From assembly GCF_017642925.1 (NCBI RefSeq), contig NZ_JAEPOL010000013.1, positions 1 to 64,000 on the forward strand: a stretch of 64,000 nt of DNA, given 5' to 3'. How positions within the stretch are numbered: the first letter of the stretch is position 1; the number at the start of each line of letters is the position of its first letter. Positions 13,286 through 57,832 of this stretch are shown piece after piece. The stretch is from Maricaulis sp. Lineage in GTDB: Bacteria > Pseudomonadota > Alphaproteobacteria > Caulobacterales > Maricaulaceae. The notes beneath the pieces are model-generated. The model saw only the letters and a program-made list of their open reading frames with translations. It was not told the DNA's origin and did not search any database. Position numbers and translations under genes: made by a program.

Positions 13286-13361
13286 GCCGGCTTAGCTCAG
13301 CTGGTAGAGCACCTGATTTGTAATCAGGGGGTCGGGGGTTCGAGTCCCTCAGCCGGCACCA
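13286..13361 (+). tRNA. tRNA-Thr (anticodon TGT)
   Basis: Begins GCCGGCTTAGCTCAGCTGG, anticodon arm CCTGATTTGTAATCAGG with anticodon TGT, T-arm GGGGGTTCGAGTCCCTC and ends AGCCGGCACCA with encoded CCA. Length 76 nt. The last part of the gene is duplicated about 122 bp downstream. Confidence 0.96.
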
Positions 13362-13588
13362 TTTTTCCTTTGTTCCCGCTCCGCTCGACCCGAGCCTGTC
13401 ACCGCGGTCGGTGTCGGGGTCGATGCTCGCATGGAACGCGCTCAGGGCTGCGGGGAGCGAGCCCGATCCCTCAGCCGGCACCATTTCTCGATTGCTTCCG
13501 CTCCGCTCGAACCCGTACCCGGTCAAACTGCCGGTGGTGGGGTTCGTGCTCACATGAAGCACGCTCAAGGCTGCGGGGAGCGAGCTTG
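13345..13588 (+). repeat. Diverged ~122-bp duplication that includes the tRNA-Thr 3' end
   Basis: The 20-bp string tccctcagccggcaccattt occurs at the tRNA-Thr 3' end (13345-13364) and again at 13467-13486, an offset of 122 bp. The sequence after each copy is related: cgctccgctcga, a ggtcgg/gccggtggtgggg stretch, atg(g)aa-cgc-gctca and gctgcggggagcgagc. The two units are more diverged than the 114-bp array beside tRNA-Tyr. No gene is supported between 13362 and 13779; called ORFs here are repeat translations. Confidence 0.85.
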
Positions 13589-33380: not shown

Positions 33381-34238
33381 ATGGTAGCTACCCCTCGACC
33401 GCCCAAGAAATTCCTTAAAATCCTTCATGTTGAGGATGACGAGCAGGTCGGGTTGACTGCTTGCGCCGGATTTGAGTTCAAGAAGTGGCGCGCTCGGAAG
33501 CTTGCCGAGCATCTAGTAAATTGGCTGCCTCACTTTGCACTAAGGCGACAAGAAATAGAATCTATTGGGTCCGAAAACCCGTGGCTTTTGTTGCGCGATG
33601 CCGCTACCAGAGTCTTCCAGTCATCAAGCGGAAAAAGCCGGGGTGAGATAGGCGAACTACTTCTGCACATAATTTCAGTCACGGAATACAAGGCTCACGC
33701 TTTCGTTTCCCGACTTTTTTACAAAATGCGCTCTAACGACCAAGTAACTGGCTTTGATTCTGCACTTGTTACCTACGATGAAAACACTGAAGAAATAGAA
33801 CTATGGCTCGGCGAAGCGAAGTTCTACAGTGACACCAAAGACGCAGTTTCCGCTGCACTGGCGAGTCTAAAAACACACCTGAAGGAGGGGTTTCTAAAAG
33901 AGACCAAAATCCTTGTTGGGCCAAAGATCGAAGCCGACACACCTGGGTACGCCAAACTTCAATGGCTCTTCGACGATGCCAGCACCTTGGATGAGATCAT
34001 CGATCGCATTGTCGTCCCCGTTCTTATCGCCTCAGAAAGTGAGGCAGCACAGAATTTCGATGGGAACGTCGAGACCTACCGTGAGTTGGTTCTCGAAGAG
34101 TATGAGTATGTGAGCGGGCGATTGGCAAGCTCACCAATCGCCGCACAGGTGCGTGTAGTCGCGATCTACATCCCGCTGGCATCCAAGGCTGCACTCGAGA
34201 CCGAGTTCATCAATTTGATAAAGGGCTTCGAAGAATGA
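33381..34238 (+). CDS. hamA: Hachiman anti-phage system nuclease subunit HamA (DUF1837)
   Basis: A 285-residue DUF1837 protein. The PD-(D/E)XK nuclease residues are visible: RGEIGELLLH (Glu89/Glu92), GFDSALV (Asp126) and LWLGEAKFY (Glu145, Lys147). In Hachiman, HamA is held inactive by HamB and degrades DNA when released, stopping phage spread. It overlaps hamB by four bases (ATGA), so the two are translationally coupled. Its AT-rich composition differs sharply from flanking genes, indicating horizontal gain. The ATG at 33381 lacks a strong Shine-Dalgarno. Confidence 0.93.
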   Translation: MVATPRPPKKFLKILHVEDDEQVGLTACAGFEFKKWRARKLAEHLVNWLPHFALRRQEIESIGSENPWLLLRDAATRVFQSSSGKSRGEIGELLLHIISVTEYKAHAFVSRLFYKMRSNDQVTGFDSALVTYDENTEEIELWLGEAKFYSDTKDAVSAALASLKTHLKEGFLKETKILVGPKIEADTPGYAKLQWLFDDASTLDEIIDRIVVPVLIASESEAAQNFDGNVETYRELVLEEYEYVSGRLASSPIAAQVRVVAIYIPLASKAALETEFINLIKGFEE

Positions 34239-36328
34239 AATCGACCCTGATTGAGGCCCTTGGTGGAGAGATTCCTGACGCCGCGGCAGCTCTTAAACTA
34301 CTCAACTCTGCTTCTACCCATTGGCTTAGTGGCGAGCGGGCTATCGAAGACGACGCGGAGATCGCGGTTCGTTTGTTTGCGCGAGCAGACGATCTAGAAG
34401 AAGTACTACCAGGCGCAAAGACAATCATTCAAGCAATTGGGCGAGAAGCAGGCCTGTTTCCGTACTTGGACGAGGTATCGATTACGCGAGACGAAATAGC
34501 ACTAGAAACGCATCGAGTTCCGGGCCTCGACGACACCGTATTTCATTCTGAACAGCTACGAGTATTCAGAAAGCTGGCGTCAGGAAAAAATGTCATCCTG
34601 TCCGCCCCAACCAGTTTTGGCAAAACGCTACTTGTTGACGCCCTGATCGCACACCGCCAACCGAAACTGGCCGTGATAGTCGTTCCCACTATCGCACTTC
34701 TGGAGGAGCGAAGACGGACCATCGTAGACCGCTTCACCGACTACGATGTCATCTCACAGAATTTTCAAGCCATAACGGACCAAAAAACTATCGTTATAGG
34801 AACCCAAGAACGCATCTTCGACCGCACCGACTTGCACAAACCAGATTTGTTTGTCATCGACGAGTTCTACAAGCTCGACCTCACAAGAGGCGATACTCGC
34901 GCAAATACGCTGCATGCGCTGTTAGCGAGGTACATTGATCAGTCGAGACAGGTTTATCTCCTCGGCCCCTCCCTACCTGACAACCCAGTCAATACGAAAG
35001 AGCGACCCGACTTCGAGTTTGTGAAGACCAAGTACTCGCCAGTGGCAGCCGACGTCATCAGCGTTGAGCCTCAGGGAACAGATCCAGATGTTCTTGCAAA
35101 ATACCTGCACGAGGAGGCCGAAGCATCCCGTTTGATATACTGCCAGTCGCCTCGGTCAGCGCGAGATCTCTCGCGAGAGCTCATACAGCGCAAAGTCGGA
35201 CGGCCCACCAAAACAGTAAAGCGAATTGCCGATTGGTTGCGCCAAAACTACCATGATGGCTGGTACGTCGCGGACGCGCTTGAACAAGGGATAGGCATTC
35301 ACCATGGCCGCGTACCTCGCGCGATTGCCCACCTAATGGTCAGCCTTTTCAATCAGCGAAAGATTGGCATCTTAATCTGCACATCCTCACTGATCGAAGG
35401 AGTCAACACGACTGCTGAAGTGGTATTTATATACGACAAGAAAATCAGCACAAGAAAATTAGACCGATTTACTTTTGACAACATCAAAGGTCGGGCTGGA
35501 CGCATGTTCCGCCACTTCATCGGGCGCATATATCTATTCAACGAAGCGCCTCATGAAATTTGGGACCCATTAGACATCCCTTTGCTGCAGGACAGAAGTA
35601 GGATTTCTGACAGAGACTTGTTTCAAGTTCCCGAGGAGCACCTCACCGATACGAATCTTCGTCGTAAAGCTGAGTTTATCGAAAACTCTCCATTGCCAAC
35701 CAAATTATTGGAAAAGTACGCGCGATACGGCGTAGGTGATATTGAACTCTGCTATAACGAACTCGAAGAAATGCTTTCTACCGGAAGCCGGAAAATCCTT
35801 TGGACGGGCCTGAAAGGCTACAAGGAAATTCTAGCGAGCATGGAAATAATTTGGGGACGAATTCAGTTTGACAAGCACGGAGTTCACTCAGCGAGACAAT
35901 TTGCATTTTTCGCAAATAAACTTCAATACTCAAAAAGCATTAGATCATTTTTAGAAAAAATCGTCTCAGAAGATAATACTGATGAAGATATCGATTTGGC
36001 GTTTAACTTTCTTAGGGGGGTGGAGTACTCCTTTGTTCAGCCGCTTGAGTTTGTTCAAGATATCGCCGAAGAAATATTAGGAAAAGCCGGAGAAATTGAT
36101 TACTCTGTATTTTTGGCGCGAATTTCCAGCTGGGGGCTTCAAGGGCATTCAAAAGCACTTGAGGAGGTAGGAATTCCCGAGCCCATAATCAGGAAGCTTG
36201 AAGGCTTTATCGACACTTTCGACATTGATGCGGCCGTAGCGGAGACCCGTCGACTAATGGAATCAGGAACCATACTGTCCGACAATGACGTCCTTGTTCT
36301 GGACTTCACGCTAGGCTCGAGGCGCTGA
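34235..36328 (+). CDS. hamB: Hachiman anti-phage system helicase subunit HamB
   Basis: A 697-residue superfamily 2 helicase. Walker A SAPTSFGKT (about residues 123-131), motif Ia VVPTIALLEE, DEAH-box variant VIDEFYK (208-213), motif IV/V GIGIHHGRVPR and motif VI KGRAGR (418-423). Length and pairing with a DUF1837 gene define Hachiman. HamB is known to sense abnormal DNA during infection and to free HamA. The C-terminal ~260 residues are helical and follow the helicase core. No other gene lies between its stop and tRNA-His, 70 bp away. Confidence 0.93.
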   Translation: MKSTLIEALGGEIPDAAAALKLLNSASTHWLSGERAIEDDAEIAVRLFARADDLEEVLPGAKTIIQAIGREAGLFPYLDEVSITRDEIALETHRVPGLDDTVFHSEQLRVFRKLASGKNVILSAPTSFGKTLLVDALIAHRQPKLAVIVVPTIALLEERRRTIVDRFTDYDVISQNFQAITDQKTIVIGTQERIFDRTDLHKPDLFVIDEFYKLDLTRGDTRANTLHALLARYIDQSRQVYLLGPSLPDNPVNTKERPDFEFVKTKYSPVAADVISVEPQGTDPDVLAKYLHEEAEASRLIYCQSPRSARDLSRELIQRKVGRPTKTVKRIADWLRQNYHDGWYVADALEQGIGIHHGRVPRAIAHLMVSLFNQRKIGILICTSSLIEGVNTTAEVVFIYDKKISTRKLDRFTFDNIKGRAGRMFRHFIGRIYLFNEAPHEIWDPLDIPLLQDRSRISDRDLFQVPEEHLTDTNLRRKAEFIENSPLPTKLLEKYARYGVGDIELCYNELEEMLSTGSRKILWTGLKGYKEILASMEIIWGRIQFDKHGVHSARQFAFFANKLQYSKSIRSFLEKIVSEDNTDEDIDLAFNFLRGVEYSFVQPLEFVQDIAEEILGKAGEIDYSVFLARISSWGLQGHSKALEEVGIPEPIIRKLEGFIDTFDIDAAVAETRRLMESGTILSDNDVLVLDFTLGSRR

Positions 36329-36398: not shown

Positions 36399-36475
36399 TG
36401 GTACCGCCTTCCCGGTTCGAACGGGAGACCTCTAGATCCACAATCTAGCGCTCTAACCAACTGAGCTAAGGCGGC
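36399..36475 (-). tRNA. tRNA-His (anticodon GTG), A73, no encoded G-1
   Basis: The reverse complement begins GCCGCCTTAGCTCAGTTGG, with anticodon arm CTAGATTGTGGATCTAG (GTG) and end AGGCGGTACCA. The base before G1 is T and the discriminator is A, so the usual G-1:C73 pair is absent. This matches the documented tRNA-His exception in part of the Alphaproteobacteria. Length 77 nt with CCA. Confidence 0.95.
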
Positions 36476-36795
36476 ACTCGGGTGTCACGGTCCGCAAAGG
36501 GGGCGTGAGGCGCGGGAAACTAGCGTCCCTCCCGCGCGCTGGCAACTGCTTCGTCAGGCGATTTGCAGGCCGCCGTGCGGGCGGACTGCGACGGGCGGGA
36601 AACGGCTGATCCCGAGCGCTTGTCGGTCCTTCCCCTTGATGGGGAAGGTGTCCCGAAGGGACGGAAGGGGTGAAACGCGGAGCGTGTCCATTCAGACACC
36701 TCGCTCCCACCCACTCCACCACGCCTGCGGCGTGGTCCCCCTCGCCCATCGAGGGCGAGGACCTGGAGCCCGCGACGCCGTCCTGGAACCGCTCC
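36476..36795. repeat. Intergenic hairpin cluster (REP-like element) at about 36628-36760
   Basis: No gene. Three perfect hairpins lie close together: ccttcccc-ttgat-ggggaagg (36628-36648), ccacgcc-tgc-ggcgtgg (36719-36735) and cctcgccc-atcga-gggcgagg (36740-36760), with a further imperfect one between. The first and last are similar in design and may be the ends of a small dispersed palindromic element. It may also end transcription of the M48 gene. Confidence 0.7.
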
Positions 36796-54723: not shown

Positions 54724-56442
54724 TCAACAATCCATCCCGCTTTCGAAAGCCTGCGCGATGGCGGGCTGACGGCGCATGATCCCGGCCGCCACGGCGCAAC
54801 GCCCGGACGGCTGCAGGCGGGTGTCGGCGGCAAGATCGGCGGCGATTGCGGCCGGGGTGTCCCGCCCGGTCATGACTTCCGGACCGCCATCCGCCGGCGT
54901 GTCGAACCGCATCAGCCGGGCCGTCTCGCCCCAGCGCGGCCAGTCCGGACCGGCACCACCGCCCGTGCCGGGCTCGCCCGTATGGGCAAACTGCCCCCAG
55001 TAGCCGCCCATTGCATCGGCCAGTGCCGCACGGCCTTGCGCATTACGGTCATTGAACAGGACGCGATCGAACGGGCCGAACAGCTCGAAATGGTTGAAGA
55101 CGAACGGGATCTCCATGGCGTGCGAGGCCCCGAGCAGAATGCCGGTATCGGTCAGCAGAACCTTGCCGCCCTCGTCCCAGTCGAACCGGTAGGCCCACAA
55201 ATCCTCATGGCCGGCCGACCGCAGACGGTCGAGCAGACCATCGACAGCCCCCACCCGCCAGCTGCGGCTGGGATATTCGACCGCCGCCTGGTAGCGCGCC
55301 ACGTCCCGCGGCCAGACGAGCGGCCCCAGACGCCGCGTCAATTGCGGATCGAAGGCGGTGTAGAGCTTCATCTCGTCCCGATTGGCACCGGTGATCAGGG
55401 GCACGGGCGCGAAACCGCCCGGCCGCGCCGCAGCGCCCAGTATGCCGTCCTCGGGCAGGCTCACCCCGTCCTCGATCATGCGCGGCAGCGAGGTGAAGGC
55501 GCCGTTTTCGTCACGATAGACCGCGTAGACATCCTCCAGCGGCACCGCCCGCATCGCCGCCCCGTCCGCATCCGGTCCGGCAAAGGCGGCCACGGCTTCC
55601 AGGGCGGGATGAAGGTCGTTTCCGCCGCCGTTTTCGGCGACCTCACGGCTGTTCGTTCCCGTTCCGCCGCTCTGCATGATGGCCGCATCGAAGCGGCCGC
55701 GCGCCGGTTCGGACGCCATCAGGGCGGCAATATTGAAGGCGCCCGCGCTTTCTCCGAAGATCGTGATCCGGTCGGCATCGCCGCCGAAAGCGGTGATGTT
55801 GGCGTCCACCCAGTCCAGCGCGGCGACCAGGTCGAGCAGCGCGAAATTGGCCGCCTCGTCCAGCGGGTGTTCGGCACTTTCGCGCAAGGCCGGATGCGAC
55901 AGGAAGCCCAGCGGGCCCAGGCGGTATTGCACGGCAACGACCACGACATCGCGCTCGGCCGCCAGCTGCGAGCCGTCATAGGCCGAGGACGAGCCCCAGA
56001 CATTCGCCCCGCCATGGATCCACACCATGACCGGCAACCCGGCCTCGGGCGCGGCATCGCGCGGGGCGTAGATATCGAGTGTGAGACAGTCTTCCTCGCC
56101 GATCAGCACGCCGGCCTCGACACCGGCTGCCCGGGCGGAAAGTTCATTGGTTACCTGGGGACAGACGGCGCCGTGTTCGATCGCCTCGAGCCGGCCCCCG
56201 TCAAAAGCCAGGGCCGGACGCGGCGCGCGCCAGCGCAGATCGCCTTCAGGCGGGGCCGCATAGGGTATGGCCAGCCAGGCGGAGGCCGCCTCTCCGGAAT
56301 GGAAACCGACAATCTCGCCCTGGGCGAGCGTGCGCTGCGTCTCCGGCGCCGGTTCGGTCCGGACCTGAGTCTCCTCCGCCCCGTTACACCCCGCCAGCGT
56401 CAGCAGCGCTGCAACGGCTGCCAAGCACACACATCTCTTCAT
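54724..56442 (-). CDS. Carboxylesterase/lipase family protein, lipoprotein
   Basis: A 572-residue type-B carboxylesterase. Lipoprotein signal LAAVAALLTLAGC (Cys19). EDCLTLDIYAP and the nucleophile elbow FGESAGAFN (Ser) are the two family signatures; MVWIHGGANVWG forms the oxyanion hole, and GASHAMEIPFVF has the catalytic His. Secreted and membrane-anchored esterase of unknown substrate. No neighbours in the same operon. The tRNA-Lys insert lies upstream, at its 5' side. Confidence 0.92.
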   Translation of the reverse strand: MKRCVCLAAVAALLTLAGCNGAEETQVRTEPAPETQRTLAQGEIVGFHSGEAASAWLAIPYAAPPEGDLRWRAPRPALAFDGGRLEAIEHGAVCPQVTNELSARAAGVEAGVLIGEEDCLTLDIYAPRDAAPEAGLPVMVWIHGGANVWGSSSAYDGSQLAAERDVVVVAVQYRLGPLGFLSHPALRESAEHPLDEAANFALLDLVAALDWVDANITAFGGDADRITIFGESAGAFNIAALMASEPARGRFDAAIMQSGGTGTNSREVAENGGGNDLHPALEAVAAFAGPDADGAAMRAVPLEDVYAVYRDENGAFTSLPRMIEDGVSLPEDGILGAAARPGGFAPVPLITGANRDEMKLYTAFDPQLTRRLGPLVWPRDVARYQAAVEYPSRSWRVGAVDGLLDRLRSAGHEDLWAYRFDWDEGGKVLLTDTGILLGASHAMEIPFVFNHFELFGPFDRVLFNDRNAQGRAALADAMGGYWGQFAHTGEPGTGGGAGPDWPRWGETARLMRFDTPADGGPEVMTGRDTPAAIAADLAADTRLQPSGRCAVAAGIMRRQPAIAQAFESGMDC

Positions 56443-56564: not shown

Positions 56565-56583
56565 AAATGGTGAGCCGACAGGG
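56565..56583. repeat. Left 19-bp direct repeat (attachment-site-like) of the tRNA-Lys insert
   Basis: aaatggtgagccgacaggg is identical to 57754-57772, which covers the CCA end and last part of tRNA-Lys. It marks the distal end of the insert. Confidence 0.88.
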
Positions 56584-56622
56584 GGGTGCACGATGTGGGA
56601 TTTCAATGGGCTAACATGAGCT

Positions 56623-56639
56623 AAACTGACTAACCGCCC
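56623..56639 (+). promoter_or_regulatory. Left arm-type repeat of the mini-island
   Basis: aaactgactaaccgccc, matching two copies near the right end (57683 and 57702). Position just inside the left direct repeat suggests a recombinase-binding arm site. Confidence 0.5.
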
Positions 56640-56817
56640 AATGCGTTTCAATGCGTTGTTTTGGGAATCTCCAACCCGCGAGTGGCCGGCAGACGCCAAG
56701 AGCCCGCCCCGAAACCAATACGAGTATTATCGCAAATAGTTCTCGCCAATACTGCCGCATTCGTTAAGTCCGGCAACGCAGCTAGAGTCGCGCGATATAC
56801 ACGGGTAAGCTGTCGCC

Positions 56818-57561
56818 GTGACGTACCCTGTGACCTCAACTCCGATCGCGCGGAAGATAATTCGGATATTCAATCCGTGGCTGATGCTGGTGTTCTTCGG
56901 AGCGCTGGCCTTATTGGCAGCGACCGCACAAGATCCATTCGCCCGAAGCGCATTGTGTTCCTTTGGCGTCTGTTTTTATTCGCCAAAGCCAGAATTCTGG
57001 AATTCGCTAGTTCACACGCTTTCGGCCGGCTCGGCAGTCAGCGTGTTGTTCTACTGGGTTCTAGTTCAGCTGCCTCACCACCAGAAACGCGAACGCTTAA
57101 AACGGATATTCGCCAAGCAATATCGGTCCTTCAAACTGGAGTGCATCGACATTTTTCTAGTGCTATCGGCTTCCCCACAAGACAATGACACTGCCAAACG
57201 ATTGCTTGACCTGGGAGAGTTTCGCGCCTTCTTCAAGCAAACAAATTCGAACGAAAAAGAACGATGGGACTGTTTTCTAAACGGCTTGAACGGGTACTAC
57301 CTTGATGCATTGGCGCGAAAGATGGAGCACCTGCGAGACGAGTTCAGGATTTTCCTCCTCGCTGTGGAGTCGGATGATGAAGAACTCTTGGAACTCCTCA
57401 AGCGTTTCACCCAATACACGCACTACAACGTTACCCGAAGCGAAGACTATGACGAAATCAAATCGCTGAGCGGCTATTTCTGGCAGCTCTTCGCAGGCTG
57501 GTCTGTCATCGACGGTTACAGCGACGATGACGCCGTCCTGAAAGCCATCCAACGGATTTGA
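56818..57561 (+). CDS. Unrecognised two-TM protein with cytoplasmic helical domain, cargo of the mini-island
   Basis: A 247-residue protein with two predicted membrane helices (WLMLVFFGALALLAATA about 21-37; about 64-84, ending VLFYWVLVQLP), a short extracytoplasmic loop with two Cys (CSFGVC) and a ~160-residue soluble, charged, helical C-terminal part. I recognise no family. Starts at GTG 56818; the first ATG (56884) would cut into TM1. Codon use is AT-richer than the flanks. As sole cargo of a tRNA-integrated element it may be an accessory, possibly defence-related, gene, but that is speculation. Confidence 0.75.
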   Translation: MTYPVTSTPIARKIIRIFNPWLMLVFFGALALLAATAQDPFARSALCSFGVCFYSPKPEFWNSLVHTLSAGSAVSVLFYWVLVQLPHHQKRERLKRIFAKQYRSFKLECIDIFLVLSASPQDNDTAKRLLDLGEFRAFFKQTNSNEKERWDCFLNGLNGYYLDALARKMEHLRDEFRIFLLAVESDDEELLELLKRFTQYTHYNVTRSEDYDEIKSLSGYFWQLFAGWSVIDGYSDDDAVLKAIQRI

Positions 57562-57670
57562 ACCAAGCAGGCGAGATTCGCACCTCGCAGTCTGCCAGCT
57601 GCCCGACTCATTCTCAGAACATGAAGTGTTGAGCCACCGCGGATTGGCAGGTCCACGCGGATTCAACGCC

Positions 57671-57718
57671 TTAGCCAGATCAAAACTGGCTAACCGACCC
57701 GAAAGTGACTAACCTTGA
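57671..57718 (+). promoter_or_regulatory. Right arm-type repeats and inverted repeat of the mini-island
   Basis: aaactggctaaccgacc (57683-57699) and aaagtgactaaccttga (57702-57718) are 19 bp apart and match the left-end motif. Overlapping them is a perfect inverted repeat ttagccag-atcaaaa-ctggctaa (57671-57693). The arrangement resembles arm sites of tyrosine-recombinase attachment regions. Confidence 0.5.
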
Positions 57719-57753
57719 ACAATTTCACCTAACTATTTCAACTGTTTAGGCAA

Positions 57754-57772
57754 AAATGGTGAGCCGACAGGG
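57754..57772. repeat. Right 19-bp direct repeat within tRNA-Lys
   Basis: Identical to 56565-56583; overlaps the tRNA-Lys 3' end including the encoded CCA. Confidence 0.88.
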
Positions 57773-57832
57773 ATTCGAACCCTGGACCTACTGATTAAAA
57801 GTCAGTTGCTCTACCAGCTGAGCTATCGGCTC
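57757..57832 (-). tRNA. tRNA-Lys (anticodon TTT)
   Basis: The reverse complement begins GAGCCGATAGCTCAGCTGG, anticodon arm CTGACTTTTAATCAG (TTT) and ends TCGGCTCACCA with encoded CCA. Length 76 nt. Its 3' end is the integration site of the mini-island and remains intact. Confidence 0.96.

Follow-up and report, generated by a model that had tools for sequence, protein, structure and literature searches.

A one-gene, integrase-free insert at a tRNA-Lys gene of Maricaulis resembles a complete attP

In the genome of the alphaproteobacterium Maricaulis sp. (assembly GCF_017642925.1), a 1.2-kb segment lies at the 3' end of a tRNA-Lys gene between two identical repeats and encodes no recombinase. 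How did it come to be there, and what enzyme could have placed it? We address this question starting from the first 64,000 nucleotides of contig NZ_JAEPOL010000013.1 (the window), which sit on a 135-kb contig. A sequence-only reading of this stretch had described identical 19-bp direct repeats, one of them the tRNA-Lys 3' end, around an AT-richer segment with a single gene and no recombinase, and had proposed a minimal satellite or cassette moved by an integrase supplied in trans.

The description of the locus held up throughout. The 19-mer AAATGGTGAGCCGACAGGG is present in two exact copies, the second of which ends the tRNA gene; allowing up to three mismatches recovered no further copy in the window (0.05 expected), and the 17-bp core of the repeat is found at these two sites alone in the whole genome, which disposes of the concern that it might be a common genomic repeat. 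GC content falls from about 65–70% outside to 49–55% inside the insert, averaging 51.5% within it and 65% in the rest of the window. The features of the locus, with the evidence for each, are as follows.

56565..56583, forward strand: displaced original 3' end of tRNA-Lys, the att copy on the chromosomal side (19/19 identical to the tRNA copy; upstream flank like the empty site of genome G008)
56584..57753, no strand: insert body of 1170 bp, missing in G008 (GC content, empty-site comparison); the unit is 1189 bp with one repeat copy included
56602..56639, forward strand: left arm-type repeat cluster (GGCTAACATGAGCTAAACTGACTAACCGCCC; matches 57662-57699 as a 38-nt direct repeat at 71% identity)
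56818..57561, forward strand: single cargo gene, 247 aa, predicted inner-membrane protein (ORF, structural model, four homologues)
57662..57714, forward strand: right arm-type repeat cluster (CTTAGCC...AACTGGCTAACCGACCC...AAGTGACTAACC; direct-repeat comparison, CTAAC count)
57754..57772, forward strand: att copy now at the 3' end of the tRNA, brought in by the insert (repeat search, flank comparison)
57757..57832, reverse strand: intact tRNA-Lys(TTT) (ARAGORN; Rfam tRNA, 78.3 bits)

The cargo ORF, which begins with GTG, takes up most of the insert and is its sole plausible gene. Neither the ORF list nor Pfam revealed a recombinase, an integrase or a transfer gene within the 1.2 kb, the single ORF having no Pfam match, and Rfam identified no noncoding RNA in the region beyond the tRNA.

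Comparison with relatives revealed the site in its unoccupied form. In the closest genus member (G008, 96% identical beside the tRNA), the esterase gene (start at 56442 in the window) and the downstream tRNA-Lys are separated by 124 bp, the 19-bp sequence is present once, and the insert is missing. When the flanks of the window are joined at the repeat, they align with G008 through the tRNA with no break at the join, and compact tRNA-Lys sites also occur in G001, G007, G010, G012 and G013. An empty-site variant therefore exists among relatives, as the sequence-only reading had suggested looking for, and its claim of a site-specific insertion at tRNA-Lys without an integrase is borne out by the exact repeat together with the empty site. 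The flanks of the two copies further reveal the polarity of the event: the sequence beside the left copy matches the G008 flank at 15 of 25 ungapped positions (65% over 60 bp), and that beside the tRNA copy at 7 of 25 (44%). The left copy is thus the original end of the tRNA, and the present end came with the insert, which is what integrase-mediated insertion would produce. We take site-specific integration at this tRNA-Lys gene as established at the level of sequence. The cargo gene was detected in one of 19 genus genomes and is missing from the other 18.

The two noncoding ends of the insert (234 and 192 bp) have in common a 38-nt direct repeat of 71% identity, with a third partial copy. The best ungapped match between the left and right ends scores 16, a value reached by none of 400 dinucleotide shuffles (mean 8.7, maximum 14). 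The pentamer CTAAC appears five times in these 426 noncoding bases against 0.6 expected, and when the ends are joined into an attP, exact TGRCTAACC sites fall at −58, −39 and +43 from the core. A core with repeated arm sites on both sides is the layout of a lambda-type tyrosine-integrase attP, and as judged from its letters the insert looks like a complete attP that lacks the integrase.

As a control for arm layout we used a 51-kb prophage at tRNA-Lys(TTT) in G021 (L083, L118, L117; G021:C8:41166-92561), in which a 405-aa ORF, probably the integrase, occupies the integrase position beside the tRNA, and a 46-bp core carries GTTGGAAG repeats on both sides. This prophage and the Maricaulis insert have the same target and two-sided arm repeats, but the prophage has a probable integrase beside the tRNA, a core that reaches into the anticodon loop (46 versus 19 bp) and an arm 9-mer of its own, GTTGGAAGG. 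The argument from G021 is one of same layout and not of same motif, each element having its own arms.

To place the insert in the context of its genome, we surveyed 43 tRNA genes for repeats of the tRNA 3'-end 14-mer (at most one mismatch), mostly over about 9 kb on each side and less at contig ends. Four repeats were found on the expected side and in the expected orientation, none on the wrong side, none of the 5' end, and two inverted. The four lie at Lys-TTT (1189 bp), Lys-CTT (3198 bp), Gly-GCC (9.66 kb) and Thr (122 bp). The 9.66-kb element at tRNA-Gly(GCC) has a repeat of 50 bp and contains a PF00589 gene. Downstream of tRNA-Thr, a unit of about 120 bp is present twice in tandem at 13345-13585 of the window; the two copies have diverged, and each begins with the last 17–20 bp of the tRNA. 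Elsewhere in the window, an AT-rich Hachiman pair (33381-36328; HamA at 33381-34238 and HamB at 34235-36328) lies directly at the 3' end of tRNA-His (36399-36475), with no integrase and no repeat of 11 bp or more, and the stretch at about 36624-36772 belongs to a repeat of roughly 140 bp that is dispersed in very many copies over the genomes of the genus.

The arrangement recurs in the genus. At least five more small integrase-free inserts bounded by direct repeats (1.45–3.2 kb, one to four genes) occupy tRNA-Lys or tRNA-His genes, and no integrase match was found among their scanned cargo proteins. One of them is a second insert in the Maricaulis genome itself, at tRNA-Lys(CTT) (G000:C34:42875-46148, L186): 3198 bp bounded by a 16-bp repeat of the tRNA 3' end, with a GC fraction of 0.51 versus 0.67, several small genes without assigned function and no integrase. 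At tRNA-Lys(TTT), G014 carries a 1915-bp insert with a repeat of about 45 bp, encoding a 217-aa membrane protein and a DUF4238 protein, and G011 one of 1778 bp with a repeat of about 48 bp and three small ORFs, one of them DUF6864; both lack an integrase. The sequence-only reading had suggested looking for the same 19-bp-bounded insert with different cargo: these two carry different cargo at the same tRNA site, and no insert combining the ends of the Maricaulis one with another cargo turned up.

Two further inserts lie at tRNA-His, one of 2052 bp with a single 552-aa gene in G005 (L179, G005:C3) and one of 1451 bp with a single 355-aa gene in G002 (L180, G002:C27). In each case the T-stem is the usual one in the displaced copy and carries a paired change in the tRNA itself, so that a foreign 3' half of the tRNA came in with the insert; this indicates that these tRNA ends derive from another host. 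An ECKA motif in the 552-aa gene of G005 may point to a nuclease fold. Under the same shuffle test, arm repeats are strong in G005 (AGGGGGCACAA, 0/400), weaker in G002 (6/400) and weak in G014 (21/400) and G011 (56/400). In G004 (L075), about 2.4 kb between the esterase gene and tRNA-Lys hold a HigB-like toxin gene with a HigA-like neighbour; a tRNA repeat could not be detected there, and the segment may be an older insert. The integrase-free inserts look like a recurrent type of passenger DNA in the genus, and their size of 1.2–3.2 kb, their lack of an integrase and their differing arm motifs agree with a picture in which many integrases each move small passengers that carry an attP.

The reading we favor, at a probability of roughly 0.58, is that the insert is a non-autonomous integrative cassette, of the CIME or additive-island-cassette type, whose attP with arms would be acted on by a tyrosine integrase from a helper in trans. 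The cassette would have existed as circular DNA with an attP made up of a 19-bp core equal to the tRNA-Lys 3' end and TGRCTAACC-type arm sites on both sides. This attP would recombine with the attB at the 3' end of tRNA-Lys(TTT); the target site and the arms suggest a tyrosine integrase as the catalyst, one not encoded by the cassette and presumably supplied by a helper element. Insertion would preserve an intact tRNA whose 3' end now comes from the cassette, move the original 19 bp 1.19 kb away and deliver a passenger of one AT-rich membrane-protein gene. Action in trans most simply accounts for an insert that has a complete att structure but no integrase, and for the occurrence of six inserts of this sort; the cassette may still be mobile.

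A search for the helper came up empty, so that the integrase in trans proposed from the sequence, and the expected helper with the 19-bp core in its attP, have no candidate among the genomes covered. None of the six PF00589 genes of the Maricaulis genome, two of them XerC/XerD-like, has the core or the arm motif nearby. Comparing the island ends with plasmids and phages at the DNA level returned no helper, and a single core match in IMG/VR lies inside a phage structural gene and was rejected as chance. The paired arm motif led to no helper in 137 family genomes, matches elsewhere having no nearby integrase (blastp, short loci), and the core combined with CTAAC was found in 398 order genomes only in the Maricaulis genome itself. 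We found neither an excised form nor a second genomic copy of the insert.

An alternative that deserves to be taken seriously, though we doubt it, is that the insert is a decayed remnant, a CIME in the strict sense: an integrase-bearing prophage, IME or ICE at tRNA-Lys would have lost all but one gene and kept its att sites and arms. CIMEs have been described as arising in this way (PMC5704250), and full elements do exist, namely the 9.66-kb element at tRNA-Gly(GCC) and the 51-kb prophage of G021 at tRNA-Lys. No intact parent of this insert was found in the genus, family and order samples. Decay is harder to reconcile with arms kept on both sides, with short end regions in which no integrase fragment was recognised by eye, and with six inserts of similar size (1.2–3.2 kb) at three tRNA genes, which would need repeated deletions to a like end state. 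Homologous or illegitimate recombination without any integrase, the 19-bp and CTAAC repeats being coincidental, could draw on the cargo relatives that lie away from tRNA sites without repeats, but is very improbable given the exact tRNA 3'-end repeat, the one-copy empty site, the correct polarity and the control counts of the survey.

The non-autonomous cassette that we favor is not of an undescribed kind, although the sequence-only reading had picked it as the best candidate in the window for something undescribed, since integrase-less att-bounded CIMEs and tRNA-bounded cassettes down to one gene have been published (PMC3146451, PMC5704250, PMC10872708, PMC7771536). CIMEs are defined by the loss of integration and transfer genes with retention of the att sites (PMC5704250), and 15 Dehalococcoides ssrA islands without an integration module were interpreted as such (PMC3146451). 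Like these, the Maricaulis insert has attL and attR at a tRNA or tmRNA 3' end, no integration or transfer genes, and both occupied and empty sites among relatives; unlike them, it is much smaller, holds one gene and has no tandem integrase-bearing neighbour at tRNA-Lys, and unlike a strict CIME its derivation from a larger element is a possibility only.

Direct repeats of a tRNA 3' end also bound the cassettes of Ca. Actinomarinales (PMC7771536) and the additive islands of Methylophilaceae, where 20-bp tRNA-Lys repeats enclose from 330 bp with one CDS up to 42 kb (PMC10872708). Cargo in these two groups is variable and mostly of unknown function; the Maricaulis insert, by contrast, stands alone as one cassette, has arm-type repeats at its two ends, and can be compared with an exact empty site in a close relative. 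With MITEs and CALINs (PMC11389934) it has in common recombination sites, a passenger and an enzyme expected in trans, but its sites are tRNA-type tyrosine-integrase att sites and not transposon ends or attC. It differs from autonomous IMEs and phage satellites (PICI, tycheposon) in having no integrase of its own. The kind is thus known in other bacteria, and what is new here is the cargo family; the size is unusually small.

The cargo protein has predicted N-terminal helices at residues 20–36 and about 57–85, both long enough to span a membrane, and an alpha-helical C-terminal part (AlphaFold pLDDT 70.6, pTM 0.61). Profile searches gave no Pfam or NCBIfam match, and Foldseek against PDB and viral models gave no E-value below 0.001. 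Homologues of 35–38% identity occur at three other loci: L084, in an alphaproteobacterial MAG of the same order (probably the same genome as G571), L085, in a Novosphingobium MAG, and G640. At all three, a lone AT-rich gene stands amid housekeeping genes, and neither a tRNA nor an integrase nor clear repeats accompany it, from which we infer that the cargo gene can spread without the cassette. A distant relative lies among metabolic genes on a Neorhizobium replicon, a weak match in G413 contains a stop codon, and viral contigs and phages yielded no relative. Among the four homologues, changes are most frequent at third codon positions, the pattern of a real gene. The cargo is a new family, a patchily distributed two-helix membrane protein.

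From this occurrence pattern we would guess that the protein is possibly protective against phages or other stress. That it is an anti-phage defence gene, with the cassette kept as a one-gene defence module however it moved, strikes us as somewhat unlikely. A patchy, AT-rich two-helix membrane protein is in keeping with it, as is the integrase-free Hachiman pair at the tRNA-His 3' end of the same window, but the best PADLOC match has an E-value of 0.01 and is not confident, three homologues of the protein gave none at a meaningful E-value either, there is no fold match, and the homologues do not stand beside defence genes.

Searches that start from an integrase easily miss islands that lack the enzyme, and the six small inserts that 19 genomes of one genus carry at tRNA-Lys and tRNA-His genes suggest that passengers of this sort are common. 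More speculatively, and on balance we think it improbable, integrase-less circles of one to four genes with a full attP might form a standing class of tRNA-targeted passengers in the genus, MITE-like with respect to tyrosine integrases, each arm-matched to a different helper and together a route for single accessory genes. The added interest of the Maricaulis insert lies in the recurrence of its type within one genus and in arm sites as a route to the helpers: these sites could pair each passenger with its helper, which would make the movement of orphan accessory genes directly testable.
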